Shown here piece after piece: positions 24,804 through 44,960 of a stretch of 46,987 nucleotides of DNA. The position numbers and the translations under genes were made by a program. The notes beneath the pieces were generated by a model. The model was not told the DNA's origin, did not search any database, and saw nothing but the letters and a program-made list of their open reading frames with translations. Position 1 is the first letter of the stretch, and the number at the start of each line of letters is the position of its first letter. The stretch is from positions 1 to 46,987 of IMG/VR virus record IMGVR_UViG_3300044568_004272; one strand, 5' to 3'. The stretch comes from a virus.

Positions 24804-24876
24804 AGCTGGATATCGGATTTGAACCGATGACCTGAGACTTACAAAATCCCTGCTGCTACCACTGAGCTAATCCAGC
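24804..24876 (-). tRNA. tRNA-Thr (anticodon TGT)
   Basis: On the minus strand the acceptor GCTGGAT pairs with ATCCAGC. The anticodon arm is GGGAT-TTTGTAA-GTCTC (two wobble pairs), anticodon TGT. The T arm is ATCGG-TTCGAAT-CCGAT. CCA is not encoded. It reads ACA. Its 5' 21 nt overlap the 3' end of the GIY-YIG-like gene, whose TAG stop lies in the D-loop. Confidence 0.9.
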
Positions 24877-25575
24877 GAGTAGGGCGAGAGTATCCGCCGA
24901 CGATAATCTACGATGCGGCTTAGGGGACTCTTCGTTTAATACAACGTTCCTTGTTGTACCCTCTTGGTCTCCTATTTTAATTCTAGCTGCTGGATCCCAT
25001 CCGTTTGCTTTGTTGTGCTTTGCAACATTTCCTGGTGTGCTTATAAAACCATCAGCAGTGGACATCCATCGCTGAGAATTAGTTGACGCCGCACCCTTTT
25101 GTGAATCAGATTTTTTTTCTTCGTTTTTTCTTGCAAAAATACCTAATCCATTGTTTTTACACTTTAAACCACCGGGTCTTTTATTTGCCTTATTGGAGTC
25201 AATAGTCATTTGTTCAGGAGTTCGTCCATGTATTCCCCTTTTTTCTTTATAAATTTTTTCTCCACCAAGTTTGCATGCTTTTTCCCGGATGGCCCAAGAG
25301 CGAATAGCTCCGACTCGTTCATTAAGGCAAAACGGTTTATTAAGATCCGGAACAATTAAACGACGTTCTACATTTACAGCTTCTATCCAACCCTTTTCTG
25401 TGTAGGGAAATATCTCAAGAATTTGAATTTTAGGTGTATAAAAATTCCACATCCATTTGTGCGTTACAGGTGATCCCATGTAACCATCATTATATTTCTT
25501 CTCTTTATGAACACCCCAATACCAATGGGGCACTTCCTCAAACGTAATCTTATATGTATAAATACGTGAGCACAT
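24856..25575 (-). CDS. GIY-YIG-like homing endonuclease
   Basis: 239 residues. The N-terminal YTYKITF...YWGVHK, followed by YMGSPVTHKW and ILEIFPYTEKGWIEAVNVERRLIVPDLN, fits the GIY-YIG pattern of phage Seg-type enzymes in divergent form: the first strand, a Y-G motif, a His/Lys and a catalytic Glu. The C-terminal region (GIHGRTPEQM..., GGLKCKNNGLGIFARKNEEKKS, and a segment with NVAKHNKANGWDP) is a Lys/Asn-rich NUMOD-like DNA-binding tail. Its last codons lie inside the tRNA-Thr gene, so the tRNA locus may be its target or shelter. Confidence 0.7.
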   Translation of the reverse strand: MCSRIYTYKITFEEVPHWYWGVHKEKKYNDGYMGSPVTHKWMWNFYTPKIQILEIFPYTEKGWIEAVNVERRLIVPDLNKPFCLNERVGAIRSWAIREKACKLGGEKIYKEKRGIHGRTPEQMTIDSNKANKRPGGLKCKNNGLGIFARKNEEKKSDSQKGAASTNSQRWMSTADGFISTPGNVAKHNKANGWDPAARIKIGDQEGTTRNVVLNEESPKPHRRLSSADTLALLAGLAQW

Positions 25576-25628: not shown

Positions 25629-26300
25629 TTATACAGTTTCATTTGGCGTTTTCCAGAAGTAATCGTCCTGTTCACCAAGCCTTCCCCATTTAGGTGCGCT
25701 TTCGACATCGAAGTACCGTGTAGACACTTTGAAGTCTGGTGTCTTGAGGTTGTGGTTGGTTAACGATGGATCGCACATGCGACAACGATTGTTGGGATAA
25801 GCGCCAATTTGGCCGTTATCCAAAACCACAATGTTATGAGATTTATGTTCATCAGGGAATTCAGCAAAGTAAAAATCTGGTTCATTCCTATGTGGATGAT
25901 AATTGTCAATTGTAAATAAATATGTGCCTTTCATTACACCTGCGCTACGCGTCATCACTTGAAACTCCATATTGAAGATCAAGTTCTTTTCAATGACCGT
26001 AAGACCATGATCGAATCCGTTCCAGAACTGCAGGTCGGTCAGGTCTAAATCGGGGGTGGGTGGTTGTGGTTTGTCTGGATGATCTGAGTCCCAAGCTAAG
26101 AATGCACTGATGGGCAGCTTGTCGTATAGGGCGCCGTATTCAGTTAAATACGTTTCAAAATACAGGGCGCGACCGGTGAGGGACTTGCAAGTCACCCAAT
26201 AGCCGGGAGTGTATTCCCCATGGCCGTCGTGTAGGTCACGCAAGTATTCCCGTCTGACCCAAACCCTTACGGGCGGTACGTTAGCAACAAGTGTTGTCAC
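25629..26300 (-). CDS. Conserved cyanophage protein of unknown function (223 aa)
   Basis: Begins MTTLVANVPPVRVWVRREYLRDLHDG; contains FTIDNYHPHRNEPDFYFAE, then FPDEHKSHN and LDNGQIGAYPNNRCR. I recall similar wording (IDNYHP..., EHKS-N-I-LDNGQ-A-PNNR) in many cyanophage hypothetical proteins. It looks beta-rich and soluble. A minus-strand terminator precedes it, so it has its own promoter or relies on read-through. Confidence 0.65.
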   Translation of the reverse strand: MTTLVANVPPVRVWVRREYLRDLHDGHGEYTPGYWVTCKSLTGRALYFETYLTEYGALYDKLPISAFLAWDSDHPDKPQPPTPDLDLTDLQFWNGFDHGLTVIEKNLIFNMEFQVMTRSAGVMKGTYLFTIDNYHPHRNEPDFYFAEFPDEHKSHNIVVLDNGQIGAYPNNRCRMCDPSLTNHNLKTPDFKVSTRYFDVESAPKWGRLGEQDDYFWKTPNETV

Positions 26301-27320: not shown

Positions 27321-27477
27321 CAGGATTATTTTTCTTTTCTTCCAACATTTTAGCCCACCTACATGGACGAGCTAACTTTTCCCAGTCTTTGGGTGGCTCA
27401 GGAATTAAACGATACAACTCACAAAAGTAATTTTCTAATCTTTCTTCTTCAGTAGGAATGTGTATCTTCTTTGTCAC
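27304..27477 (-). CDS. Small protein with GTG start (57 aa)
   Basis: GTG at 27477 lies 5 nt after AAGG and opens a frame of 57 residues ending at TAG 27306-27304, overlapping both neighbouring genes. It reads MTKKIHIPTEEERLENYFCELYRLIPEPP..., an acidic-aromatic helix then KDWEKLARPCRWAKMLEEKK. It fills an otherwise empty 130-bp gap. Confidence 0.5.
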   Translation of the reverse strand: MTKKIHIPTEEERLENYFCELYRLIPEPPKDWEKLARPCRWAKMLEEKKNNPDGPGR

Positions 27478-27661
27478 CTTTGGCCTTACTAAAACGATTC
27501 ATAATTTCATCCATGCATTCCAAAGAATCTAACCGCTGCAGTAAATCTGCAATCATGTTAATGGTCATGGGATGTTCGGAGCGTGCTGCAAATGCCAATG
27601 CATCGCGCAGATGTTTGCCAGCTTCGTTGACTGATTCCTTGACTTGCGTGGATAAAGACAT
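27449..27661 (-). CDS. Hypothetical helical protein (70 aa)
   Basis: The ATG at 27661 has a good Shine-Dalgarno (AAGGA, 7 nt). The upstream in-frame ATG at 27700 is an alternative giving 83 residues. The sequence (STQVKESVNEAGKHLRDALAFAARSEHPMTINMIADLLQRLDSL) is helical and soluble. It is the first gene of the basic-protein operon. Function unknown. Confidence 0.55.
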   Translation of the reverse strand: MSLSTQVKESVNEAGKHLRDALAFAARSEHPMTINMIADLLQRLDSLECMDEIMNRFSKAKGDKEDTHSY

Positions 27662-27765
27662 TTCGGATTCCTTTGGTTCGCGAACAATAATTACATTCAT
27701 ATTAAACTGCGACTAGGTATATTGTGTCATTATTTTTATCTTAGCTCTAGTACGGTTAGCTCTCC

Positions 27766-29031
27766 TTAATTCACAAGAAACCGTACAGAGTAACCGTCTG
27801 CACCAATGGGTGTTTTTAATGCAAAAGAATTGATTTGACTTTTGATGTACACCAGATCTTTGGGTGTAATGCAGGGGGCCGTACCCAAGAAGAAAACACG
27901 CTTCAATACATCATATGCATTAGGGAAATCTTTAGCGTTGCCCAAATGTTTGTACGCAGGGTGTAGCAGCAAGTTGCCTGCAAAATAATTACGGGTCTGC
28001 ACTCCGTTGGTTTCCAGGTGTTGTTGTAAAGCTGTTTTTAATTTGGTGTTGTCACATACAATGGGCACACCAAACCATGACGTTTCTGCTTTAGGTTTTT
28101 CTTTAATGATACGAATGTCCGTTGTGTAAAAACGATCTTCGATGTGACTGCTGATCTGTTTGTAATTACTCCTTCTAATGCGATGAATTTCATCAAATTT
28201 TTTTAGCTGAACTTGACCAATTGCCCCTTGTAAATCCAAGGGCTTGAGGTTGTAACCAATTTGACTGAACACATATTTATGATCAACCAAAGCATCGTAA
28301 TTCTCTAGCCAATAATCAAATCGTTTACCGCACATCCCATTGGCAAGAGTGTTGCAAGCACCAACGCAATAACAGTCACGTCCCCACCAGGCAAACTGAC
28401 GCGCAAGCTGGATAACCTCTGGAATGTTGGATGACACCATCCCACCTTCTAAGGTTGTGATGTGGTGGGCTGGATAAAAAGAAGTGGAGGCTGCAACGGC
28501 TTCTTTGGTTAAATAATTGCCGTCCCATTTAGAGCCAAGAGAATCACAGTTATCTGCAATGTATTTCAGGGAGTGTTTGGAACAGATGTCGAGTAAACGA
28601 TCCAGGTCATAACAATTACCCAAAACAGGACTACTAAATACAGCGACTGTTTTATCCGTGATGGCTGCTTCGACATGATCTAAGTTCCAGTTAAGGTCAT
28701 CCCAAGTGATATCAACAAACTTGGGGACGAGATTATTTTGCAGGATTGGGTTGATTGTGGTTGGAAAACCAACGACACAAACAATAATCTCGGCTCCGTC
28801 TGGCCATTCGAAATATTTTTTTAACGCAGCAAGCATCACAAGGTTGGCAGAGCTGCCGCTATTCACCATCAACGATGAACCAAAACCAAAGACTTTGGAA
28901 AACTGGCGCTCAAACTTATCTACCTCTTTGCCCGCTGGATACCAGGCCCCTTCTTTCAAGCAGGCAATTGCTGCTTCAATCTCTGTTCCATCAAAGTAGG
29001 GTCCGGAGTACAAAACTTTTGATGTAGACAT
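27766..29031 (-). CDS. RfbH/E1-type CDP-6-deoxyhexulose 3-dehydrase (DegT family)
   Basis: 421 residues from ATG at 29031 (Shine-Dalgarno AAGGA upstream); the longer frame to 29157 lies inside the previous gene. DegT/DnrJ fold: VNSGSSANL, then SSPVLGNCYDL. At the site where sugar aminotransferases have the PLP lysine this protein has SFYPAHHITT, so H189 replaces Lys, as in E1/RfbH dehydrases. Cysteines C162, C220 and C222 keep the C-x57-C-x-C spacing of the E1 [2Fe-2S] site, and C234 follows with four extra residues. These enzymes remove the 3-OH of CDP-4-keto-6-deoxyglucose on the way to 3,6-dideoxyhexoses. Last gene of the sugar operon. Confidence 0.88.
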   Translation of the reverse strand: MSTSKVLYSGPYFDGTEIEAAIACLKEGAWYPAGKEVDKFERQFSKVFGFGSSLMVNSGSSANLVMLAALKKYFEWPDGAEIIVCVVGFPTTINPILQNNLVPKFVDITWDDLNWNLDHVEAAITDKTVAVFSSPVLGNCYDLDRLLDICSKHSLKYIADNCDSLGSKWDGNYLTKEAVAASTSFYPAHHITTLEGGMVSSNIPEVIQLARQFAWWGRDCYCVGACNTLANGMCGKRFDYWLENYDALVDHKYVFSQIGYNLKPLDLQGAIGQVQLKKFDEIHRIRRSNYKQISSHIEDRFYTTDIRIIKEKPKAETSWFGVPIVCDNTKLKTALQQHLETNGVQTRNYFAGNLLLHPAYKHLGNAKDFPNAYDVLKRVFFLGTAPCITPKDLVYIKSQINSFALKTPIGADGYSVRFLVN

Positions 29032-29822
29032 AGGTCGCGCAATCCTTCTTTCAGGGGAATTAAATGTTGAAAGCCGTGAGACTTTAGTTTGCCACAATCT
29101 AATGCAAAGTGTACGGCTTGGTTGTAATTGGCGGGTACATTGCTTCGCAAAACACATCCCTTTGAATTCAATAAAAGTTTGGCATTATCCAGGGCATCGC
29201 CTAAACGGGTTGAAATTCCTGTACCTATGTTGTAAATTTCATGGTTGCTCCCTTTGCTACAAAGGAGATTTAAAGCGCGGCATACATCCAGGATGTGAAT
29301 GAAATCTCGGGAGATATTGATATGAACGGTAATGTCATTATGATTGCGCAGGTGATTGATAAGGTAATGTAATGCATTGCGTTTGTTGGAGCCGCTGTCG
29401 GGTCCGCCGTATACATTGCCAAGACGCAAGATACGATAATTAATCCCAAAGGTTGAGCAGTATTCTTTAACTAATTTTTCCGCTGCATACTTTGTGATGG
29501 AATAAAAACCGTTCGGGTTGCAAATGGCCGATTCATTGGGAAACGAATGGTCAGGTCCATAGACAAACCAACTGCTCACAAAATTGAATGTATCAATGTT
29601 TGCCAAACGGCATGCCTCAAGCCGTTTAAGGAGTTGCACCAAATTGGTGTCAATATCGATGTGAGGGTTTTCTTTGTAGGTGGCGTTATCTGTTGTACTG
29701 ATTAGGTATAGAACATCTTTTGTTTCGGGATGGTACTGATCCCTGGGTATGCAATGGACCGGAAATAAGGCACGGTAATAGGAACCAATAATTCCCGTGG
29801 CACCATATAAACTTAAATCCAT
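28956..29822 (-). CDS. Extended SDR sugar epimerase/reductase
   Basis: 288 residues. The Rossmann motif GATGIIG is at residues 7-13, FVSSWFVYGPD carries the catalytic Ser region (83-84), and Y107xxxK111 (YSITK) supplies the catalytic pair. RLGNVYGGPDSGSN and RDFIHILDVCRAL are typical of NDP-sugar epimerases/dehydratases and of RfbJ-like abequose/paratose synthases. In context it could reduce or epimerise the product of the RfbH-like enzyme to a CDP-dideoxysugar; the exact reaction is inferred. Overlaps both neighbours (GT2 by 10 nt, RfbH-like by 76 nt). Confidence 0.82.
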   Translation of the reverse strand: MDLSLYGATGIIGSYYRALFPVHCIPRDQYHPETKDVLYLISTTDNATYKENPHIDIDTNLVQLLKRLEACRLANIDTFNFVSSWFVYGPDHSFPNESAICNPNGFYSITKYAAEKLVKEYCSTFGINYRILRLGNVYGGPDSGSNKRNALHYLINHLRNHNDITVHINISRDFIHILDVCRALNLLCSKGSNHEIYNIGTGISTRLGDALDNAKLLLNSKGCVLRSNVPANYNQAVHFALDCGKLKSHGFQHLIPLKEGLRDLCLHQKFCTPDPTLMEQRLKQQLPA

Positions 29823-30559
29823 CGTTGTCTCTGGCTACGCACTGGGTCGTATAACCAGTAGTCCAGGGGGAGGTCCATGTCAAAAGGGGTGAGATACTTC
29901 TCCTGGCCTGGCATGCCTCCCCATTTTTCAACGTAATACCGTGCGTTTTCTTTAAAAGTTTTTTGGTTTTTTGTCGCAAATTCAGGGTCCCTTTTGAGGG
30001 TTGCACTCACAATGTGGTCGTAATCCAGGGGGAAATATTCCCATTTCAGCCCCGCCAACTTCATGCGATAGCGGTGGTCGTTGTCTTCGTAATACGCAGG
30101 GAAGAAATTTTCATCCAGATAACCAACTTCGTACAGTAATTCGGGTTTAAATACCAGGGACGAATACCCATTTTGGCTTTTATCGCAAAGAATGCCAACG
30201 AACGGATCCTGTAGGCGTTTAGCCAGGCGCTTAAGTTCTCCTGGTTTAACGTGCCAATCAACCGAAAAGATGCACCAGTAGGGGGAATCGGTATTTTGTT
30301 TGATGATTTGGTTGACACTCCCAGAGAAGCCGACGTTTAAACGGTTGAAAACAACGGCAACTTCATCCACGTATTGTGAGCTTTCGCTGACAATTGTCTC
30401 AATTGCGTCTCGAACTGCGGGGTCTTTCCCCATGGAGTTGTCAACGATGAAATATCGTTTGACTGGAAAGTCAATCGAATTGAAGTGTTTGTATAGATCA
30501 TCGGCGCCATTGACGATCATGGTGCCGATAAGTTCGATGGGCGCAGGATCGTTACTCAC
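29813..30559 (-). CDS. GT2-family glycosyltransferase
   Basis: 248 residues from a GTG start that overlaps the previous TGA (GTGA). It has a GT-A fold: ELIGTMIVNG...YFIVDNS, then VVFNRLNVGFSGSVNQII (nucleotide-sugar strand), FSVDWHVKPGEL in DxD position (SVDW variant), and YEDNDHRYRMKLAG (the ED-D/R acceptor motif). No membrane segment, so it is probably cytoplasmic. It could transfer the sugar made by the downstream enzymes onto a phage or host acceptor. Part of the overlapping operon 31071-27766. Confidence 0.82.
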   Translation of the reverse strand: MSNDPAPIELIGTMIVNGADDLYKHFNSIDFPVKRYFIVDNSMGKDPAVRDAIETIVSESSQYVDEVAVVFNRLNVGFSGSVNQIIKQNTDSPYWCIFSVDWHVKPGELKRLAKRLQDPFVGILCDKSQNGYSSLVFKPELLYEVGYLDENFFPAYYEDNDHRYRMKLAGLKWEYFPLDYDHIVSATLKRDPEFATKNQKTFKENARYYVEKWGGMPGQEKYLTPFDMDLPLDYWLYDPVRSQRQRWI

Positions 30560-30735
30560 AAATCAACCCGAATGTACTCTTGGTTTTCTTCAATTAATTT
30601 AGCTTCAAATCTGTCGGCGTCGACGGTTTCTACGTCTTCGAATGCCACACCGTTTTTGGTGTAGTAATCACGTTTTAAGAATTCTTTTAGACCAAGGCAA
30701 GGTTCGCAGTAGTAAAAGCGGGTTAAGTTACACAA
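30556..30735 (-). CDS. Short CxxC (glutaredoxin-like) protein, TTG start
   Basis: TTG at 30735 overlaps the HLIP stop by 8 nt; 59 codons run to TGA at 30558-30556, which overlaps the GT2 start. The sequence TRFYYCEPCLGLKEFLKRDYY, then GVAFEDVETVDAD, has the strand-CxxC-helix-strand order of glutaredoxins but is only about two thirds of the usual length and lacks the cis-Pro and GG segments. It could be a trimmed redox protein or a metal-binding peptide. Confidence 0.5.
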   Translation of the reverse strand: MCNLTRFYYCEPCLGLKEFLKRDYYTKNGVAFEDVETVDADRFEAKLIEENQEYIRVDL

Positions 30736-30970
30736 AACCTAAAAACTGCCAGATACTTATTTTGTATATTAATTCCAGTTGCAAAATGATCACCACAGCA
30801 AGCATGGCGAACCTGCCGTTCCAGCGTTCGGCAAAGGCGATGTAGTCATCCCGGTGCCAGGGGAGATTATTCAAGTGGAGATCAACGAGATACTCCTTCC
30901 AAATTGTTTGGAAAAACCAAGCGAGGCTGCTGATCCAGCCACGTAACCATAAGACAAACTTATGAATCAT
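30728..30970 (-). CDS. hli: High-light-inducible protein
   Basis: 80 residues. The C-terminal half has the chlorophyll-binding HLIP motif: AERWNGRFAMLAVVIILQLE (E48, N51, R53, M56), then LIYKISIWQFLG. One membrane helix. The N-terminal 45 residues are longer than in the shortest phage HLIPs and contain a second hydrophobic/aromatic stretch (FVLWLRGWISSLAWFFQTIW). HLIPs protect photosystems and bind chlorophyll under light stress; they are a hallmark of cyanophages. First recognisable gene of the operon with the CxxC and sugar genes. Confidence 0.93.
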   Translation of the reverse strand: MIHKFVLWLRGWISSLAWFFQTIWKEYLVDLHLNNLPWHRDDYIAFAERWNGRFAMLAVVIILQLELIYKISIWQFLGFV

Positions 30971-31120: not shown

Positions 31121-31975
31121 ATGGTTGCTAAACTAAATACAGCAGATCCTTGGATTGAAGCTGAGGATAAGCAACCAGATCTAATGCGGAACCTGAATAG
31201 GACCGCAGCCAGAATTACGCTTAACGGTAGAAGGCACTATACAACTCCGTTACCCACTGGACCTGCGCCCTCCGTAACTACAATTATTAGCGAAACAGCT
31301 TCCGAAGCAAACAAACGGAAGCTTGAAATGTGGTCCAAGAACAATCCAGGTGTTAAAGAACAAGCTGCCGAAAGGGGAACTGCCATTCACTATGGGATGG
31401 AACAATACCTCAAAGGGAACAAAAATCCGGATATTCCTGAAGAGTATGGGGATTTTTGGGCGGGAATGCCATCGATATTGGACCAGTTCCAGGAGGTCCT
31501 TTGGGCGGAATCACCGGTACTTGACAAGTTTAATTTTACTATTGGTGCCGATGACGTGGCTCGCGTGTGGGGTTGCGATTCTGAAGGGCGATCTTTTGCT
31601 GGTGCTCCTGACATTATTGGGGTGGTGGGTAATAAGCTTACTCTTGCTGACTTGAAAACTAGCGTCAAACCTTATAGCCGTAAGTGGCCCAAGGACTTAG
31701 AAAAGGGTTCGCCTGAATGGCGAGATCTCCTGGGTGGTCACATGAAATTTAAAAAGACTTGCAAGCAGCTCGCTGCATACGACATCGCTATTGAACAAAC
31801 CTTGGGGATGAAGGTCCAGCAGGCTGCAATCTTAGTTTCAACGCCGGTGCGAACTCAGGTTTTTAAAATCTCTAGGAATTTTTTAAACCTTTTGCGCGAA
31901 GATTGGTACAAAATTCTTAAAGAATACTATACGCAAATCGAGGAGGTTGGTGAGCATGATGCGGACCTTGTTTAA
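31121..31975 (+). CDS. PD-(D/E)XK exonuclease, RecB/Cas4-like
   Basis: 284 residues. Catalytic elements in order: RGTAIHYGMEQYL (H90), E130 region, GAPDIIGVVG (D164), LADLKTS (D177-L-K179, the D-x-K pair), and KQLAAYDIA (Q216...Y220), the RecB-family QxxxY motif. It should be a Mg-dependent single-strand exonuclease acting in recombination or DNA processing. It precedes the primase-helicase and small genes in one unit. No Fe-S cysteines of Cas4 are seen, so it is closer to phage RecB-like nucleases. Confidence 0.87.
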   Translation: MVAKLNTADPWIEAEDKQPDLMRNLNRTAARITLNGRRHYTTPLPTGPAPSVTTIISETASEANKRKLEMWSKNNPGVKEQAAERGTAIHYGMEQYLKGNKNPDIPEEYGDFWAGMPSILDQFQEVLWAESPVLDKFNFTIGADDVARVWGCDSEGRSFAGAPDIIGVVGNKLTLADLKTSVKPYSRKWPKDLEKGSPEWRDLLGGHMKFKKTCKQLAAYDIAIEQTLGMKVQQAAILVSTPVRTQVFKISRNFLNLLREDWYKILKEYYTQIEEVGEHDADLV

Positions 31976-32252
31976 AGACATCCTCCAAGAAATAATCAAG
32001 TGGTGGAAACGCGTTTGGTTTGAGGCTAAGCTCACGGCTCGTCTCAAGATGATAGAACTTGAGAATCAAATTGAGTCTGAGTTAGAACGCGAAGAGCAGA
32101 ATAAACCTATTTATATTGAACATGAAGTTGATCCTGTGCTCCAGACGGGGGAATCCCTGAAGCTTGGTGGCGCAATGGAATTAAGGGCACCTTGGTATCA
32201 AGATGACACAGTGGACGCCGGACAATCAAAAGACTCCGTGGAATCCAAATGA
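31956..32252 (+). CDS. Hypothetical charged protein (98 aa)
   Basis: The ATG at 31956 has a perfect Shine-Dalgarno AGGAGG 9 nt upstream, inside the nuclease gene. N-terminal amphipathic/aromatic helix (MMRTLFKDILQEIIKWWKRVWFEAK), then an acidic coiled-coil-like part. Possibly membrane-surface associated. No family recognised. Confidence 0.6.
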   Translation: MMRTLFKDILQEIIKWWKRVWFEAKLTARLKMIELENQIESELEREEQNKPIYIEHEVDPVLQTGESLKLGGAMELRAPWYQDDTVDAGQSKDSVESK

Positions 32253-32415
32253 TCCGGAAGAGTTGCGTAGACGTACAGCCTGGTCTGTCGCAACGTCGTG
32301 CGCAATTGAGACGGGTGAGCAACCAATTGATATTTACAACAGAATGCTTGAACAATTCAAGGCTGTTGATATGTATGGACACATGGCTTTAGATGAGTCT
32401 AATGAGACCAAGTAA
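32203..32415 (+). CDS. Hypothetical protein (70 aa)
   Basis: ATG at 32203 (GATGACACAG) overlaps the previous gene by 50 nt. NPNDPEELRRRTAWSVATSCAIETGEQPIDIYNRMLEQF is a soluble helical protein. No family recognised. Start uncertain because of the long overlap. Confidence 0.5.
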   Translation: MTQWTPDNQKTPWNPNDPEELRRRTAWSVATSCAIETGEQPIDIYNRMLEQFKAVDMYGHMALDESNETK

Positions 32416-32483
32416 CTTCAGAAAGTTGTAATGGACCCCTCGGATTGGTGGCCGTAGGATAAGAAGACACCCAAAAACACCCC

Positions 32484-32708
32484 ATGGAAATCCAAGTTTC
32501 TGTGGGTGAGTGGATGAATAGTCTCATGAATCGCATGGATAATGCGGTGGATGGGGACTGTTTTTGTCTGCCCACCGCCATGCATCTTCACGCTTTCATG
32601 CTGTTGAAAGAGCAATATTTTGAAACTAAAAACTTTGGCGTGTCCGTCCAGGGGTTGGCTACAACTTCAAATCCAGAAGTTAAACTAGATATCTTGGGAA
32701 TTAAATGA
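32484..32708 (+). CDS. Hypothetical protein (74 aa)
   Basis: ATG at 32484 (ACACCCCATGG). It has a VGEWMNSLMNRMDNAVDGDCFCLPTAMHLHAF segment (Cys/His-containing) and a GVSVQGL strand. It overlaps the primase-helicase start by 4 nt (AATGATG). Unknown function. Confidence 0.55.
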   Translation: MEIQVSVGEWMNSLMNRMDNAVDGDCFCLPTAMHLHAFMLLKEQYFETKNFGVSVQGLATTSNPEVKLDILGIK

Positions 32709-35344
32709 TGAGTGGAAGTTCAAAATTTGCTTTACGTCCTGGTGAAATTCGCCTGGATCTTCTGCCCATCGACTGGCCGCTGACGCCACTGGGCGCCAAC
32801 AAGGATCCGTATGTGCGTGGTTGGCAAGATAAACCGTTTAGCAAAACGGAAATTGAAGAAGAAATTACGACTGGTGATTGTAAGGCCGTTGGCTTGATCG
32901 GGGGTCCCGCTTACAACAATCCGTATGGTTTTGTATGGGTTGATGTGGATGGCCCAACGGTTTATGAGCTTATCAAGGAAATCTCAAATGAGACTGACTT
33001 TAATAGTGCTCTGCCTCCAACGCTGACCATTTGTAGCGGTAAGCCTGGTCGTGAACGGAAGCTTTATCGTCTGCATCGCGATAAGCAAAAGCATTTCGTT
33101 CGTAATAAATACACCTGGCATGCATCTGGCAATCGGGAGAAATTAGAAATCTTGTGGTCTCGGCACCAGGGGGTGCTGATGGGTTTGCATCCTGAAACGG
33201 AAGGATACTACACCGCCGAGGGCATGGGGTTTGAGTGGATTGATCGTCTGCCTGAATTTCCGGAATGGCTGTTAAATCTCATCATTAATAAGAATGTCAA
33301 GCAGGGTGTTCCTGCTAAAGAGACAACGCGTTTTGTTGGTCCAGGCTTTGCGATTAACGCTGAGGTTTCGTTGGATCGAGACATTCAGCTCGCCAGGGAG
33401 GCAATGTGGTCCTTGCCTGCAGAAGCCGCTGATGATTACGACATCTGGATCACGGTTGGTCAGTCGCTTCATTCATTGGATGAATCGCTACTTGATGAAT
33501 GGGATAACTGGTCCAAACAGTCGGAAAAGTTTCGAGATGGTGAGTGTCACCGTCGTTGGCTTTCCTTTAGTAAGGGCGGTGGTCGCAGGCTTGGTTCGTT
33601 AATTCATATCGCCCAGGAAAATGGCTGGAAGCCTTCCGAGGACTATAAGGCCATGCCCGTGGATGACGCCATGATTGATCATGTGTCAAAACTACTGGCC
33701 GAATTAGAAGAAGACTTAGGTATTAATGCAGCTCCCGACATGCCCGTAACAACTGAAATCCGTGCAACAACTTGGTCCGCGCCAAAGGTAAAGACTGCTT
33801 CCAAGTCTGGTAAAGATCAAAAGCCTCGCAATCCTTCTGCCGACATTGTTGCAGATGTATTGCTGCAAATGTACAAAGGGAATTTGCATTACAGCCCTCA
33901 GCACGGCAGCTTTTTCATGTATGAATACCACAGCAATGGACTTTGGTCTCTGCTGTCGGACCACGAAATCAAGGGGGATATCAAAAATAAATTTGAAATG
34001 ATTAAGGAGAGTCTGTTGCCGAATGGCTACAGCATGAACCTTATTAATGATGTGCTGGAGCAATTAAGAATTAGTGTCATCTTTGATGATTGGTATGAAG
34101 GCAAAGATCTTTTGCTCTTCACGAACGGTATTTTGAACGTTCATTCAAAAGAACTGATGCCGTTCAACCGTGATCTGTACATCACCCAACAACTTCCTTA
34201 TGAGTACGATCCGGCTGCTACATGTGAACCCATCATTAAATGGTTGAAAAATACACAGGAAAATAATTGGGGTCGCACCCAGGTGTTAAGGGCTTGGCTT
34301 CGTGCAGTGCTTCTTGGGTACTCTGATATTCAAAAGTTTGTGGAGATTGTCGGCCCAGGTAAATCGGGTAAGTCCACTTACTCCAACTTGGCTCATGCTT
34401 TGGTTGGTGATGACAACGCCATGATCTCTTCCCTTGAGCACCTGGAGAAGAACCGATTTGAAACCGCAAACCTCTATAAGAAAAAACTGCTGCTCTTCAA
34501 TGATGTGGAGCGGTACGGCGGTTCAGTTTCCGTGTTAAAGGCGATTACCGGACGTGACCTCATCCGTAATGAACGGAAGTTTCAGACGGGTAGCCAGAAG
34601 CCTTTCAAGTTCAATGGCCTCGTGATGATTACGGCCAACGAACCGATCCAAACCACTGACCCGACTTCTGGTTTAGCGCGGCGTCGCCTCACAATTCCAT
34701 TTGATAAACCGTTTGTTGGTTCTTCGGCAGAGCAAAAAACACTCATTGACATGGATGATCGCGGTCGTCCGTTCGGAGAATTTGCTTCCTTGCTGCCAGG
34801 GTTGGTCAACTGGGTCCTGGATTTGAGTGAGGCTGAGATGCGGGAATACCTGATGGAAACCAACAAGAAGGTACCGTTCTTTGCAAAGCATCATCAAGAA
34901 CAAATCCTGAAGTCCAATCAGATCATGGATTGGATGAGTCACTGCATCATCTTTGATCCAGGTATTTCGTCTGCGGTGGGTGTTGCCAAGATGGCTGTCA
35001 ACAATCCATCTCGCATCTATGAGCACAGTTCGGAGCACCTGTATCCAAATTACTGTGAATTTTGTCGTGGAAGCAATGGAAACATCTTGGGCCGCAGTCG
35101 TTTTGAATCGTTGGTCTTAGACGTTTGTATCCACCAGCTGGGCCTTAATGTTTACAAAATGAAGACTAATCGTGGCCTGAGAATCAACAATATTGCTACG
35201 CGGACAAGCAATGCCACCAAATATCAAGACTATCCGTCAATCGTTGAGGCTGGATTGAATAAAGAAGAATGGTCTCAATTTTATGGTGATGTTTTAAGTG
35301 GGAAGACTGATGTCAAAATGGAGGAAGTGGCCGAAGAATTTTGA
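32705..35344 (+). CDS. Prim-pol/SF3 primase-helicase
   Basis: 879 residues. The N-terminal prim-pol domain is about 15-190 (DWPLTPLGANKDPYVRGW, GFVWVDVDGP, TICSGKPGRERKLY), followed by a PriCT-like module about 225-310 (LAREAMWSLPAEAADDYDIWITVGQ...WLSF, LIHIAQENGW). The C-terminal half is a D5-type SF3 helicase: Walker A GPGKSGKST about 550-558, Walker B KLLLFNDVE about 594-602, sensor MITANEPIQ about 640, then RRRLTIPF. It makes primers and unwinds DNA at the fork with the T7-like polymerase. Start ATG or the next ATG 3 nt on; the 3' end overlaps speD. Confidence 0.94.
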   Translation: MMSGSSKFALRPGEIRLDLLPIDWPLTPLGANKDPYVRGWQDKPFSKTEIEEEITTGDCKAVGLIGGPAYNNPYGFVWVDVDGPTVYELIKEISNETDFNSALPPTLTICSGKPGRERKLYRLHRDKQKHFVRNKYTWHASGNREKLEILWSRHQGVLMGLHPETEGYYTAEGMGFEWIDRLPEFPEWLLNLIINKNVKQGVPAKETTRFVGPGFAINAEVSLDRDIQLAREAMWSLPAEAADDYDIWITVGQSLHSLDESLLDEWDNWSKQSEKFRDGECHRRWLSFSKGGGRRLGSLIHIAQENGWKPSEDYKAMPVDDAMIDHVSKLLAELEEDLGINAAPDMPVTTEIRATTWSAPKVKTASKSGKDQKPRNPSADIVADVLLQMYKGNLHYSPQHGSFFMYEYHSNGLWSLLSDHEIKGDIKNKFEMIKESLLPNGYSMNLINDVLEQLRISVIFDDWYEGKDLLLFTNGILNVHSKELMPFNRDLYITQQLPYEYDPAATCEPIIKWLKNTQENNWGRTQVLRAWLRAVLLGYSDIQKFVEIVGPGKSGKSTYSNLAHALVGDDNAMISSLEHLEKNRFETANLYKKKLLLFNDVERYGGSVSVLKAITGRDLIRNERKFQTGSQKPFKFNGLVMITANEPIQTTDPTSGLARRRLTIPFDKPFVGSSAEQKTLIDMDDRGRPFGEFASLLPGLVNWVLDLSEAEMREYLMETNKKVPFFAKHHQEQILKSNQIMDWMSHCIIFDPGISSAVGVAKMAVNNPSRIYEHSSEHLYPNYCEFCRGSNGNILGRSRFESLVLDVCIHQLGLNVYKMKTNRGLRINNIATRTSNATKYQDYPSIVEAGLNKEEWSQFYGDVLSGKTDVKMEEVAEEF

Positions 35345-35694
35345 GTAAAGGGCGCCATTTAATTCTGGATCTTTACGGTTGCGACCAGCAGCTGTTGGAT
35401 GATTACGACCGTTTGCAGCAGATGCTAGAAACTGCGCTGCAAATGTCGAACGCCACAATTCTTCGGATTATTGGCGAAAAGTTTAAACCCCAGGGCGTCA
35501 CGCTACTTGCTTTGTTGGCTGAGTCCCATGCCTCTATCCACTCGTGGCCCGAGTTGGGTTATGTGGCAATCGATTTATACACTTGTGGTGATAAGACGAA
35601 TACGGATAAGGCTGCTCAGTTTTTAAAACATAAATTAAAGGCAGAAATTGCCGAACAAAAAGAACTTATTCGCTCTTCAACTCTAGAAAAATAA
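35341..35694 (+). CDS. speD: S-adenosylmethionine decarboxylase proenzyme
   Basis: TTG at 35341 overlaps the helicase stop (TTGA); 117 residues. LLALLAESHASIHSWPELGYVAIDLYTCGD is the bacterial class I AdoMetDC signature. Self-cleavage should occur between E61 and S62 to make the pyruvoyl cofactor, and C82 matches the proton-donor Cys. It supplies decarboxylated SAM for spermidine synthesis. Phage speD copies are known from marine cyanophages. It is coupled to the replication genes rather than to photosynthesis genes. Confidence 0.92.
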   Translation: MSKGRHLILDLYGCDQQLLDDYDRLQQMLETALQMSNATILRIIGEKFKPQGVTLLALLAESHASIHSWPELGYVAIDLYTCGDKTNTDKAAQFLKHKLKAEIAEQKELIRSSTLEK

Positions 35695-35723
35695 GTATAG
35701 TAAATTCAGTCAACTTGCAAGTA

Positions 35724-36968
35724 ATGACTGAAAACAAACCTAAACTTCTTTGGATTGGCGATATCGTCGCCATGACTGGCTTTGCACGAGTCACAGAAAA
35801 TGTACTGAGCCGCCTGAAGGATCGATATGAAATTCATGTGCTTGGTTGTAACTGGCACGGTGACTACACGCCGTTGCAAGATGAGTACCGCATGTATCCA
35901 GCCTCCAATCGGTTCCAGCAGGCGCCCTTTGGAGAAGATCGAATTCGCGAAATTGTTGAGTTGGTTAAGCCAGATGTTGTCTTTACGATTAACGACAGCT
36001 GGATCATTAACGAACAATGGAAGCGCATTGCTGATTTAAGGGAATCGCTCAACTTCAAGTTCGTGGGCTACTACCCCATGGATTCGTATGAGTGGTATGC
36101 AGCTCTCCTGGATACACTCAATGATTGGGATGCTGCAATCTGTTACACGGAATTTGGTGCAAACGAAACAATTCGTGCAGGTGCCAAGGTGCCGATTACT
36201 GTTATTCCCCATGGCATGACGCCTAAACAGTTTTATCCCGTTGATAAGAAAAAAGCGCGGAAAGAACTGGGGCTGGAAGAAGACGATTTCATTGTGTTCA
36301 ATGGCAATCGAAATCAATTCCGTAAACGGCAAGACATTACAATCAGCGCCTTTGCCAAGTTTGCGGTCGGTCGCCCGAACGCCAAGCTTTACATGCACAT
36401 GGGGATGAAGGACCAGGGATGGGACATCATGCCGCTGTTTGCACGGGAGATGGCACGTCAAGGGTTGGATCCCAACAACCGCATCATCATGACTTCGCCG
36501 CACCCGCATCCCCCCTCGGTGCCGGTGGAGCTGCTCAATACCATCTATAACGTTGCCGACGTAGGTGTTAATACCTGCAAAGGTGAGGGCTGGGGGCTTG
36601 TGAATTTTGAACATGCCGCCTGTCGTGTGGCCCAGGTGGTGCCTGATCACACGTCTTGTAAGGAAATTTTTGAAGGCGCTGGCCTCTTGATTCGTTCTCT
36701 CCATGCTGATGTGGATACAAACTTTGGTCGTATCATGCCGTGCCCCGATGACAACCATCTGGCTGAGCTGCTTGCACAGCTGTATGAAGACCGTCAACTG
36801 CTCGATGAGACCGCACAGGCTTGTTATGAGCGTGTGACGGATCCCTGCTTCGATTGGGATACGGTTGCCGATCAATTTGACGACGTTTTCCAGGAGGTCA
36901 TTGCTAAGCGGGAGGAGGAGAAGCCGCAGATTGTCAAGCCAAAAGCTAGGAAAAAAGCAAAGAAGTAA
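35724..36968 (+). CDS. GT4-type glycosyltransferase (GT-B)
   Basis: 414 residues from ATG at 35724 (GCAAGTAATGACTG). The N-terminal domain has GDIVAMTGFARVTENVLSRL; the C-terminal domain has VIPHGMTPKQFYPVDK, FNGNRNQFRKRQDI, KLYMHMGMKDQGWD, and the donor-binding EGWGLVNFEHAACRVAQVVPD (E-x7-E variant). The C-terminus is a Lys-rich tail. Retaining glycosyltransferases of this type can modify DNA, virion or host glycans; the target is unknown. A strong terminator closes the unit (exonuclease, primase-helicase, speD, GT4). Confidence 0.88.
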   Translation: MTENKPKLLWIGDIVAMTGFARVTENVLSRLKDRYEIHVLGCNWHGDYTPLQDEYRMYPASNRFQQAPFGEDRIREIVELVKPDVVFTINDSWIINEQWKRIADLRESLNFKFVGYYPMDSYEWYAALLDTLNDWDAAICYTEFGANETIRAGAKVPITVIPHGMTPKQFYPVDKKKARKELGLEEDDFIVFNGNRNQFRKRQDITISAFAKFAVGRPNAKLYMHMGMKDQGWDIMPLFAREMARQGLDPNNRIIMTSPHPHPPSVPVELLNTIYNVADVGVNTCKGEGWGLVNFEHAACRVAQVVPDHTSCKEIFEGAGLLIRSLHADVDTNFGRIMPCPDDNHLAELLAQLYEDRQLLDETAQACYERVTDPCFDWDTVADQFDDVFQEVIAKREEEKPQIVKPKARKKAKK

Positions 36969-41078: not shown

Positions 41079-43571
41079 TTACGTTAGATAATATTGATAA
41101 ACAGCTGGGACAACAGTTGCAGAAGAAGTACTATCAACAATGTATAAAATACTGCCGTAATATCCAACGCAGACTCCAGCAGAACTGGTTGTTTGCAAAA
41201 GAACGCTCAATGACTTACTTTCGTATGCTGCAGTACTTATATCCCATGCAGTAGAACATGAGTATTGATAAACGGTATCGTTTATATTTCCAACAATATA
41301 AAACTTGGTGCCGTCATCTTTAAAAAATAATCCTAATGGAGTAGTTTCTTGTGTTGCAACACTAAATGATTTACTGTCATACGATGCTGTACTTACATCC
41401 CATGCAGTGGAACATGAGTATTGATATATGGTATCGTTTGCAACGCCAACAATATAAAACTTAGTGCCGTCATCTTTGAAAAATAATCCACTTGGATTAG
41501 TTTCTTGCGTTGTAACACTGAATGATTTATTGTCATATGATGCCGTACTTACATCCCATGCCGTAGAACAAGAGTATTGATATACAGTATCGGTTGCGTT
41601 GCCGACTATATAAAATTTAGTGCCATCGTCTTTAAAAAATGCTCCATTTGGAGTAGTGTCTTGCAAGCCAACCCGTGCCCTAGCAAAAGCGCCACTAGCT
41701 GTTTTATTAAAGAAAGCTGTGGTTACATCCCAGGGATTGCTGCAGTCGTATTGAAAAACTGAATCATTTGCGTTACCAGTAACATAAAAACGCGTGCCAT
41801 CTGGTTTAAATGTAATATCTTGTGGAGATGTGTCTTGCAACGCCGCATTCATATTTTTAGCAGTAAAGCCAGCGTTTACGATATCCCAGGCTAGGGGAAG
41901 GTCATACTGCCAAACGGTATCGTTTGTTTGACCAACAATATATAACCTTGTGCCATCAGATTTAAACGCCAATCCATGCCCAGTAACTTCTTGTGCACTA
42001 ACACTAAATGACTTGCTGTCATACGATGCAGTACTTACATCCCATGCTGTAGAACATGAGTATTGATAAATGGCGTCCGATGTAAAACCTAACATGTAAA
42101 ATGTAGTGCCATCATTTTTGAAAACTACTGAACTTGAACTTCCATCTTGTCCACCAACACTAAATGACTTGCTGTCATACGATGCAGTACTTACATCCCA
42201 TGCGGTAGAACATGAGTATTGATAAATGGCATCAGTTGTGTTGCCAATTACATAAAACTTAGTGCCGTCAGGTTTAAAGAATAATCCTGTTGGAGTACTT
42301 TCTTGCGTATTAACACTGAATGATTTATTGTCATACGATGCAGTACTGATATCCCATGCAGTAGAACATGCGTACTGAAAAACCGAATCACTTGTAGTTC
42401 CAACAATATAAAACTTAGTGCCATCATCTTTGAAAAATAATGCTTGCGGATTTGTTTCTTGTGTTTGGACACTAAATGATTTACTGTCATACGATGCAGT
42501 ACTGACATCCCACGCAGTAGAACATGAGTATTGATAGACGGTATCGTTTGTTTGTCCAACAATATAAAACTTGGTCCCATCATCCTTAAAATGCACATCG
42601 GTTGAAAGACCTTCTTGTCCACCAATATAAAACCCACTTCCCGCTTGGTTGTTTGTGCTTACATCCCAAGCTGTAGATAAAGTGAATTCATAGACCCTGT
42701 TATTGGTAGTACCAATTACATATAACTTGGTGCCATCAGATTTAAAACAAAGGCCTGTTGGTGTGCCTTCAAATAAAACCCTGCAGAGTTTACTATCGTA
42801 AGACCCAGTGCTTACATCCCATGCTGTAGAACATGAGTATTGATAGACGGTATCGGTTGCACTGCCTATAATATAAAACTTAGTGCCATCATCCTTAAAA
42901 AATAATCCCTGTGGACTAGTTTCTTGCGTTGCAACACTAAACGATTTACTGTCATACGATGCAGTACTCACATCCCATGCAGTGGAACAGGAGTATTGAT
43001 ATACGGTATCGTTTGTAGTGCCGACAATATAAAACTTAGTACCGTCATCTTTGAAAAATAATCCATTTGGCCCAGTCTCTTGCGCATTAATACTAAATGA
43101 TTTACTGTCATAAGATGCTGTACTTACATCCCATGCTGTATAACAAGAATATTGATAGACGGTATCGTTGGTACTGCCAATAATATAAAACTTAGTACCG
43201 TCATCTTTGAAAAATAATCCATTTGGATTACTTTCTTGCGTATTAACACTGAATGACTTGCTATCATACGATGCAGTACTTACATCCCATGCAGTAGAAC
43301 AAGAGTATTGATAGATGGTATCGTTTGTAGTGCCAACAGTATAAAACTTAGTTCCATCAGTACTGAATTGAACGTCTTGAAAAGCAGTTTCTGATAATCC
43401 AAGCGGCCATTGCTTATTCGTGTAATACCCCTTGTCCACTTCCCAGGGTAGTCCAGTCCACTCGCCATCCCGGGTGAATTGCCCTTGGTCATAAATCTCC
43501 CACATCCCAGGTTTACCCGAGGAGATTTGGCCGTAACCAACAGGTTTTTTACCGATGTAATTACCTTTCAT
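41079..43571 (-). CDS. Tail fibre with about 15 beta-propeller-like repeats
   Basis: 830 residues. The N-terminal segment (GKKPVGYGQISSGKPGMWEIYDQGQFTRDGEWTGLPWEV) resembles the attachment domain of phage fibres. Then 14 regular and one degenerate copy of a 52-residue unit follow: FFKDDGTKFYIVG-TNDTVYQYSCSTAWDVSTASYD then SKSFSVQTQE. The DGTKFY turn and Trp-Asp motif suggest beta-propeller blades (two 7-bladed propellers would use 14). It probably binds host surface polysaccharide. It is paralogous to the upstream gene at 43587-44960, and the repeats are conserved at DNA level. Confidence 0.8.
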   Translation of the reverse strand: MKGNYIGKKPVGYGQISSGKPGMWEIYDQGQFTRDGEWTGLPWEVDKGYYTNKQWPLGLSETAFQDVQFSTDGTKFYTVGTTNDTIYQYSCSTAWDVSTASYDSKSFSVNTQESNPNGLFFKDDGTKFYIIGSTNDTVYQYSCYTAWDVSTASYDSKSFSINAQETGPNGLFFKDDGTKFYIVGTTNDTVYQYSCSTAWDVSTASYDSKSFSVATQETSPQGLFFKDDGTKFYIIGSATDTVYQYSCSTAWDVSTGSYDSKLCRVLFEGTPTGLCFKSDGTKLYVIGTTNNRVYEFTLSTAWDVSTNNQAGSGFYIGGQEGLSTDVHFKDDGTKFYIVGQTNDTVYQYSCSTAWDVSTASYDSKSFSVQTQETNPQALFFKDDGTKFYIVGTTSDSVFQYACSTAWDISTASYDNKSFSVNTQESTPTGLFFKPDGTKFYVIGNTTDAIYQYSCSTAWDVSTASYDSKSFSVGGQDGSSSSVVFKNDGTTFYMLGFTSDAIYQYSCSTAWDVSTASYDSKSFSVSAQEVTGHGLAFKSDGTRLYIVGQTNDTVWQYDLPLAWDIVNAGFTAKNMNAALQDTSPQDITFKPDGTRFYVTGNANDSVFQYDCSNPWDVTTAFFNKTASGAFARARVGLQDTTPNGAFFKDDGTKFYIVGNATDTVYQYSCSTAWDVSTASYDNKSFSVTTQETNPSGLFFKDDGTKFYIVGVANDTIYQYSCSTAWDVSTASYDSKSFSVATQETTPLGLFFKDDGTKFYIVGNINDTVYQYSCSTAWDISTAAYESKSLSVLLQTTSSAGVCVGYYGSILYIVDSTSSATVVPAVYQYYLT

Positions 43572-43586
43572 CTTTTTATTTTTTCC

Positions 43587-44960
43587 TTATTCTAATAGAA
43601 GAGAGTATTGATAAACCGTATCAAATCCTGTGCCTACAATATAAAACTTGGTGCCGTCAGATTTAAAAAATAAAGTTTGTGGAGCATTTTCTTGCGTATT
43701 AACACTGAATGACTTGCTATCATATGATGCAGTACTTACATCCCATGCGGTAGAACAAGAGTATTGATAAACGGTATCGTTTGTAATACCAACAATATAA
43801 AATTTAGTGCCGTCATCTTTAAAAAATATACCAGTTGGGGCATTGTCCTGTGTTACAACACTGAATGACTTACTGTCATACGATGCAGTACTTATGTCCC
43901 ATGCCGTAGAACAAGAGTATTGATAGACTGTATCGTTTGTATTACCAACAATATAAAATTTAGTCCCGTCATCTTTAAAAAATATACCAGTTGGGGCATT
44001 GTCCTGTGTTACAACACTGAATGACTTACTGTCATACGATGCAGTACTTATGTCCCATGCCGTAGAACAAGAGTATTGATATACGGTATCGTTTGTATTA
44101 CCAATGATATAGAACTTAGTGCCATCAGATTTAAAAAACAATCCTGTTGGATTAGTTTCTTGCGTTGTAACACTGAATGATTTACTGTCATACGATGCTG
44201 TGCTTACATCCCATGCTGTAGAACATGAGTATTGATATACTGTATCGTTTGTGGCTCCAACAATATAAAATTTGGTGCCATCAGTTTTAAAAGTAAGATC
44301 TTGAGGAGAACCATCTTGTCCACCCACATAGAAATAAGCGGCATAAGCCGTACTAACATCCCAGGGAGTTAATAGAGAGTATTCAAGTACGGTATCGTTT
44401 GTATTACCAATGATATAGAACTTAGTGCCATCTGATTTAAAAAACAGTCCTCCAGGACTAGTTTCCTGTGTTCCAACACTAAATGATTTACTGTCATACG
44501 ATGCAGTACTTACATCCCATGCGGTAGAACAAGAGTATTGATAGACGGTATCGTTTGTAATACCGACAATATAAAACTTAGTGCCGTCAGGTTTAAAACC
44601 TATTGCGCGTGGGCTAGTCTCTTCGGCATTAACACTAAATGACTTGTTGTCATATGAAGCAGTATTTACGTCCCATGGAATAAAACATGAGTATTGATAA
44701 ACAGTTCTATTTGTTTGACCAACAATATAAAATTGGGTGCCATCGGATTTAAAATATAGGTCAACAAAACCGGTATCTTGCGCAGTAACACTAACCATTG
44801 GAAAATCAGGCCGCGCCCCGGCCAATCCCCATGCTTCCGGCCATGTCGTATCGATAATACGATCCACCTGTTGAGACAGCTTCCACATTCCAGACCACTG
44901 AATGCCAGTGCGGGGTGGACGAGCACCTGCGTAACCAGCCTCAAAAGTTTCAAGTGACAT
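43587..44960 (-). CDS. Tail fibre with about 8 propeller-like repeats
   Basis: 457 residues. A 60-residue N-terminal domain (FEAGYAGARPPRTGIQWSGMWKLSQQVDRI...WPEAWGLAGARPD) is followed by eight 52-residue units like those of the 41079-43571 protein. The two proteins are tandem paralogues separated by 15 bp. Two adjacent units share an identical 116-bp DNA block (43810-43925 and 43966-44081), a sign of recent unit duplication. Probable receptor-binding fibre. Confidence 0.78.
   Translation of the reverse strand: MSLETFEAGYAGARPPRTGIQWSGMWKLSQQVDRIIDTTWPEAWGLAGARPDFPMVSVTAQDTGFVDLYFKSDGTQFYIVGQTNRTVYQYSCFIPWDVNTASYDNKSFSVNAEETSPRAIGFKPDGTKFYIVGITNDTVYQYSCSTAWDVSTASYDSKSFSVGTQETSPGGLFFKSDGTKFYIIGNTNDTVLEYSLLTPWDVSTAYAAYFYVGGQDGSPQDLTFKTDGTKFYIVGATNDTVYQYSCSTAWDVSTASYDSKSFSVTTQETNPTGLFFKSDGTKFYIIGNTNDTVYQYSCSTAWDISTASYDSKSFSVVTQDNAPTGIFFKDDGTKFYIVGNTNDTVYQYSCSTAWDISTASYDSKSFSVVTQDNAPTGIFFKDDGTKFYIVGITNDTVYQYSCSTAWDVSTASYDSKSFSVNTQENAPQTLFFKSDGTKFYIVGTGFDTVYQYSLLLE
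43810..44081 (-). repeat. Tandem duplication inside tail fibre gene
   Basis: The 116-bp block 43810-43925 recurs exactly at 43966-44081, a 156-bp offset equal to one 52-residue blade. Other blades differ by many substitutions, so this copy is the youngest. Confidence 0.85.

Follow-up and report, generated by a model that had tools for sequence, protein, structure and literature searches.

The locus and its phage carrier

The window, by which we mean the whole stretch of 46,987 bases analysed here, comes from an IMG/VR virus record and carries on its minus strand three overlapping genes in the order glycosyltransferase (29813-30559), SDR (28956-29822) and 3-dehydratase (27766-29031). The last of them encodes 421 residues, predicted to form a [2Fe-2S]/PMP NDP-4-keto-6-deoxyhexose 3-dehydratase of what is called here the x11 type, a sister clade of E1/RfbH. 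The original prediction had the coordinates of this reading frame exactly right and gave no strand; the strand is minus, and a plus-strand reading of the same interval was rejected because of its many stops. With M1 at 29031, the earlier residue numbering was reproduced (F185-Y-P-A-H189-H190-ITT, C162, C220, C222 and C234). A read-through start at 29157 was also discarded, since alignments with relatives begin at residues 1-4 and a ribosome-binding-like stretch, AAGAAGG, precedes the ATG at 29031.

The dehydratase matches DegT_DnrJ_EryC1 in Pfam (6e-69) and finds its best NCBIfam model in RfbH (2.6e-105). Among solved structures, the best phmmer matches were the Yersinia E1 entries 3bcx and 3bb8 (E=3.8e-69 for 3bcx), and the alignment with E1 spans residues 9-403. 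Comparison with four relatives gave dN/dS values of 0.05-0.11, which indicate purifying selection; the gene is thus intact and strongly constrained.

The carrier is a freshwater cyanobacterial virus of the S-EIV1-like kind; its primase aligns over 98% with the counterpart from Synechococcus phage S-EIV1 (entered as S-EIVl), at 62% identity. Gene order is conserved relative to this phage through the AdoMet decarboxylase and the group 1 glycosyltransferase, and the syntenic backbone (31121-36968, plus strand) comprises exonuclease-like, primase/helicase, AdoMet decarboxylase and group 1 glycosyltransferase genes. The cassette itself lies between two minus-strand genes common to S-EIV1, one downstream at 27449-27700 (69% identity) and one upstream at 30728-30970 (42% identity). 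Between the same flanks S-EIV1 has a single 196-aa gene with weak similarity to Methyltransf_24, so that the three-gene cassette represents variable cargo at a fixed site. A megablast search of the right half of the window against phages returned one 85-bp match only.

Such a location, where another phage keeps a different gene, would also fit passenger cargo, that is, a host glycan gene picked up with no role in infection, as would the sporadic occurrence of cellular relatives. We nevertheless regard it as the least likely of the explanations weighed here: the low dN/dS values argue against it, as do the retention of all ligands and of the catalytic histidine across 80 viral loci and the presence of the same SDR partner in very different viruses.

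Catalytic histidine and predicted cluster cysteines

The active site was studied in a motif alignment of 106 sequences, 105 of them E1-like. His189 (codon at 28465-28467, minus strand, as are the codons below) aligns with His220 of E1, the residue changed to lysine in PDB entry 3bb8. This column holds His in all E1-like and ColD-like rows and Lys in 22 ordinary aminotransferases, which bears out the proposal that a histidine has replaced the PLP lysine. The cysteines expected as cluster ligands are Cys162 (28546-28548), Cys220 (28372-28374), Cys222 (28366-28368) and Cys234 (28330-28332), which align with E1 Cys193, Cys251, Cys253 and Cys261, respectively. All four, together with His189, are present in 105 of 105 E1-like sequences. 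The order C162-x57-C220-x-C222 reproduces C193-x57-C251-x-C253 of E1, a numbering that, like H220, we take to be that of the E1 ligands and catalytic residue and that agrees with our alignment.

The possibility that the four cysteines would fail to align with the E1 ligands was examined and did not materialize. The fourth, as had been predicted, lies four residues beyond its E1 position; between C222 and C234 there is a loop of 11 residues (28333-28365) that marks the x11 clade, against 7 in E1/RfbH. C226, which is near C234, was considered as a fourth ligand and set aside, as it is conserved in only 48 of the 106 sequences, leaving Cys234 as the predicted one. Cys220 and Cys222 are absent from ColD, whereas the Cys162 column is also Cys there, so that Cys162 alone is not diagnostic. 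With a phmmer E-value of 3.8e-69 to 3bcx, the E1-like match goes far beyond chance.

An AlphaFold2 model built from the window and relative sequences (mean pLDDT 86, pTM 0.86) has a DegT-type aminotransferase fold, with E1 as the nearest structure to the model. The first three Foldseek matches were E1 (TM 0.82, E 2e-34), followed by a sugar aminotransferase and ColD. The model is weak at residues ~211-260, where three of the cysteines lie, with a pLDDT of ~60 in the Cys220-Cys234 region.

A clade sister to E1/RfbH

In a tree that included 22 Lys-bearing aminotransferases, the query grouped with the E1-like and ColD-like proteins across a branch with SH-aLRT support of 100, and not among the ordinary enzymes. 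This grouping and the alignment of all four cysteines support the predicted E1-type [2Fe-2S]/PMP 3-dehydrase chemistry. The motif reads C-x57-C-x-C-x11-C and departs from the x7 spacing of RfbH/E1. A spacing of 11 between the third and fourth cysteines was found in the 80 IMG/VR loci examined, in near cellular relatives and in S-H68-type phages, and a spacing of 7 in E1, in Salmonella RfbH and in all ordinary cyanobacterial RfbH proteins tested. Both groups remain separate (100/100) in a tree calculated without the loop columns. The query falls in a virus-only clade of 15 rows (100/100) amid mixed viral and cellular x11 lineages, a mixture that implies several transfers.

Scores with the RfbH equivalog model NF011936 point in the same direction. 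The query reaches 352.7 bits, below the cut-off of 423, in comparison with 672-762 bits for four E1-like x7 proteins; six x11 proteins were scored, and all except the basal one from Nitrospirae (446.8 bits) stay below the cut-off. Hence the label "RfbH/E1-type" given in the original prediction holds for the E1-type chemistry and fails for membership in RfbH. By sequence, the query belongs to an x11 clade sister to E1/RfbH, frequent among viruses and of sporadic occurrence in bacteria. We know of no biochemistry for any of its members.

Distribution in viruses and cells

A search of IMG/VR found relatives of the query on 555 stretches, and the best 80 of these, which were examined, are all of the x11 type. 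Relatives also occur in the isolates S-H68, S-B05, S-B43, RN05-S and RB11-B, with the S-H68 gene already annotated as CDP-4-dehydro-6-deoxyglucose 3-dehydratase. Moreover, in sargassum viruses rfbH has been counted among the abundant genes for O-antigen (PMC11295528). Viral rfbH was therefore known before, and the view that a viral copy is unusual cannot be maintained. A Salmonella "phage" record with an RfbH match was excluded, being an unannotated contig of 2.6 kb that looks like host contamination.

In cells, on the other hand, x11 genes are rare: they were found in 1 of 292 sampled cyanobacterial genomes, and in 2 of 296 and 5 of 291 genomes sampled from the phyla of two other cellular relatives (G010 and G009, respectively).

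The partner genes of the cassette

The SDR gene, named "epi", codes for 288 aa. Its product shows SSWFVYG at the place where RmlB has STDEVYG, lacking the Asp-Glu pair of 4,6-dehydratases and keeping YxxxK, which suggests a reductase or epimerase; a role as 4,6-dehydratase was dismissed because of the missing pair, and a dedicated 4-ketoreductase is predicted. The same SDR lies near the x11 gene in 74 of 83 viral and 18 of 22 cellular loci, directly adjoining it in 62 and 18 of them, and was found at none of 15 x7 loci.

The first gene of the cassette encodes a putative GT-A/GT2-like glycosyltransferase of 248 aa, with a weak match to PF00535 and a PHROGs match to phrog_29879, galactosyl transferase (1e-26); it is conserved in an alignment with relatives. 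Its AlphaFold2 model was poor (pLDDT 59) with no significant PDB match by fold, and a fold-based identification was rejected for this reason; a sequence search of the PDB gave no match either.

Neighbouring genes and the nucleotide of the substrate

The gene neighbourhoods of the two groups differ. RfbF and RfbG were found at 0 of 105 x11 loci, in contrast with 15 of 15 (RfbF) and 11 of 15 (RfbG) x7 loci, although these 15 had been partly picked among RfbG-positive genomes and the genome-wide RfbG figures are a fairer measure. Genome-wide, RfbG was over cut-off in 43 of 58 x7 genomes, mostly adjoining RfbH, against 1 of 20 x11 cellular genomes, there ~18 kb from the x11 gene (Fisher p=4e-8), and in 0 of 42 virus records.

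What accompanies the x11 genes is the SDR and, where a pathway is encoded, the dTDP genes RmlA, RmlB or RmlC. In two close viral relatives of the query (L010 and L019), RmlC and RmlB lie next downstream of the dehydratase gene, each scoring above its curated cut-off. Phages S-H68 and RN05-S carry a phage-borne x11 gene with RmlB, RmlC and SDR, the last three being consecutive in S-H68. Three cellular cases, each with RmlA and/or RmlB over cut-off, are similar. RmlA and RmlB lie divergently beside the SDR-x11 pair of Bdellovibrionota; in the Nostocales genome HT-58-2 one x11 copy is immediately preceded by RmlB, and the other shares a region with RmlB, RmlA and SDR; and in Prochlorococcus AG-347-J21 a single contig holds RmlA, RmlB, RmlC and the SDR-x11 pair. 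The computed association is thus with Rml rather than RfbF/RfbG genes, and is circumstantial in so far as most x11 loci, the window included, hold no nucleotidyl-sugar pathway gene besides the SDR, and RmlB often serves rhamnose synthesis. With this weight, the neighbours suggest that the x11 enzyme acts on dTDP-sugars and not on the textbook CDP-sugars.

The CDP route of the original prediction does not agree with these relatives, which carry dTDP-sugar and not CDP-glucose genes. A classical E1/RfbH activity, by which CDP-4-keto-6-deoxyglucose from the RfbF/RfbG of the host would be converted into a CDP-3,6-dideoxyhexose of the abequose, tyvelose or ascarylose type, would agree with E1 being the closest characterised enzyme. 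The host could also supply the CDP substrate, given that the 43 RfbG-positive cyanobacterial x7 genomes include many of ~2 Mb, and a small cytidylyltransferase-like gene occurs in twelve viral loci, several times just before RmlB. The score below the RfbH cut-off, the separate clade and the absence of RfbF/RfbG from the x11 loci and of RfbG from the virus records speak against this option, which we consider rather unlikely.

Electron donor

E1 needs a flavin/Fe-S reductase, E3 (RfbI/AscD), and SpnQ uses ferredoxin or flavodoxin systems (PMC8987622). A Fer2 protein was found neither in the window nor in most virus records, while S-H68 and RN05-S carry their own, of ferredoxin size. E3-sized Fer2 fusions were not detected in the x11 genomes of Prochlorococcus or Nostocales, by a search of doubtful sensitivity: it gave no Fer2 match in several picocyanobacterial genomes expected to have ferredoxin, and is imperfect for E3 as well. 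No E3 was seen near the x7 genes of cyanobacteria, so that its absence was dropped as a trait proper to x11. Since no E3-sized Fer2 protein was found, host ferredoxin would be the likely donor.

SpnQ, the dTDP-4-keto-2,6-dideoxyglucose 3-dehydrase, offers a parallel by its description, on which the comparison is based: the [2Fe-2S] cluster, the ferredoxin supply and the dTDP substrate, predicted for the query, are shared (PMC8987622), while its substrate is a 2,6-dideoxy sugar and the one predicted here is 6-deoxy. Genes of the dTDP pathway, a SpnQ-type feature, are absent from the window itself but accompany x11 genes in several lineages. A SpnQ-like activity on another dTDP-keto-deoxysugar (e.g., 2,6-dideoxy), or mainly a PMP/PLP transaminase activity in the absence of reductase, would be consistent with SpnQ being a dTDP-specific, ferredoxin-fed 3-dehydratase with the same cluster motif that behaves as a transaminase when no reductase is present (PMC8987622). 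No 2,3-dehydratase was noticed in the neighbourhoods examined, by inspection and not by a dedicated search; besides, no variation occurs at His189 and a role as 4-ketoreductase suits the SDR partner, which makes either version quite improbable.

Proposed mechanism and comparison with known systems

Altogether, the best explanation is probably that of a PMP/[2Fe-2S] 3-dehydratase acting most likely on dTDP-4-keto-6-deoxyglucose with electrons from host ferredoxin, within a cassette completed by SDR and glycosyltransferase. For the bound cofactors (cluster and PMP), the nucleotide, the electron donor, the stereochemistry of the sugar, its acceptor and the benefit to the phage, we infer a scheme that follows the E1-type mechanism as reviewed in PMC8987622. 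PMP would form a Schiff base with the C4 ketone of the NDP-4-keto-6-deoxyhexose, and His189 would abstract the C4' proton from the cofactor, with departure of the C3 hydroxyl. The glucoseen intermediate would then be reduced by electrons arriving from host ferredoxin through the Cys162/220/222/234 cluster, which would yield a 4-keto-3,6-dideoxy sugar. The most likely substrate, dTDP-4-keto-6-deoxyglucose, would be provided by host RmlA/RmlB in the present case and by phage RmlB in some relatives. The SDR may reduce C4, with RmlC, where present, as C5-epimerase, and the glycosyltransferase of the cassette would transfer the dTDP-3,6-dideoxyhexose, most likely to a host surface glycan. Modification of this glycan is proposed by analogy with precedent, namely the LPS genes of cyanophages (PMC9602691) and the authors' proposal that, by changing the sites at which hosts are recognised, viruses might keep out other phages (PMC11295528).

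Enzymes of the E1/AscC/DdhC/RfbH group (PDB 3bb8, 3bcx; NF011936) share with the query the fold, the histidine in place of lysine and the four cluster cysteines. They differ in having C-x7-C instead of C-x11-C, in scoring above the RfbH cut-off, in their clade, in RfbF/RfbG neighbours that x11 loci lack, and in the SDR, which is a different one in x11. ColD, the GDP-4-keto-6-deoxymannose 3-dehydratase (PDB 2gms, 3b8x), is alike in fold, catalytic histidine, PMP chemistry and the Cys162 column, whereas it has neither the other cluster cysteines nor an Fe-S cluster (PMC8987622). As for the LPS/O-antigen clusters of cyanophages S-H68, S-B43 and RN05-S, the first and the last share a phage-borne x11 gene, there with RmlB, RmlC and the SDR; the window, from a phage resembling S-EIV1, holds a minimal form with three genes.

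The review cited above (PMC8987622) describes the synthesis of 3,6-dideoxyhexoses as CDP or GDP sugars only. The x11 genes could then represent an undescribed, largely virus-borne module (3-dehydratase and dedicated SDR, joined by RmlB/RmlC in some phages) for dTDP-3,6-dideoxyhexoses fed with photosynthetic-ferredoxin electrons, a third nucleotide route found mainly in cyanobacterial phages; we hold the case for and against this proposal to be evenly balanced. Neither the x11/x7 split nor the association with dTDP genes was found in the literature searched. If the dTDP assignment were true, the substrate given in public annotations of viral and bacterial x11 proteins as CDP-4-dehydro-6-deoxyglucose 3-dehydratase would be incorrect, and a dTDP-3,6-dideoxyhexose route would be carried chiefly by phages. 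The split predicts dTDP versus CDP substrate directly. In bacterial O-antigens, 3,6-dideoxy sugars are a strongly antigenic type, and one installed by a phage could change the host surface in infection and affect adsorption by competing phages.

Other features of the window and of related sequences

The minus-strand gene at 25629-26300 was considered as a phage ferredoxin beside the cassette and rejected, as its product has only three cysteines, lacks Fer2 and matches no family of Pfam or NCBIfam. It is conserved, matches the PHROGs ferredoxin phrog_3704 (5e-97) and has an S-EIV1 homologue named PurM; both names look wrong. At 24804-25575 (minus strand), a homing-endonuclease-like ORF (phrog_314), present in three fetched loci only, has its end overlapped by a tRNA-Thr(tgt) gene. 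The AdoMet decarboxylase gene, speD (35341-35694, plus strand), is intact, and the S-EIV1 counterpart region is split over two reading frames. At 41079-44960 (minus strand), two adjoining genes of 830 and 457 aa share the same repeat (GLFFKDDGTKFYIVG..NDTVYQYSCSTAWDVSTASYDSKSFSV) and have beta-propeller-like Pfam matches; their products are possibly tail or receptor-binding proteins. A connection with the hypermodified DNA of S-B43 was discarded, as the S-B43 paper deals with carboxymethylcytosine and mentions no sugar pathway.

Regarding related sequences, a sister phage (L001) is 98-100% identical to the window over most of the region compared (27750-28600), except for a patch of ~88-92% identity inside the dehydratase gene that looks like a homologous recombination tract. 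The contig JAURGV010000174.1 (L084), binned as a Rhodothermales bacterium, has phage genes 72-89% identical to those of the window and is probably of phage origin, misplaced among bacterial contigs by the binning. Finally, in an archaeal RfbH-like gene from Woesearchaeota KatS3mg002 (L101:5902-8658), an intein containing a LAGLIDADG domain is inserted close to the His motif of the active site (Intein_splicing, 6e-17).
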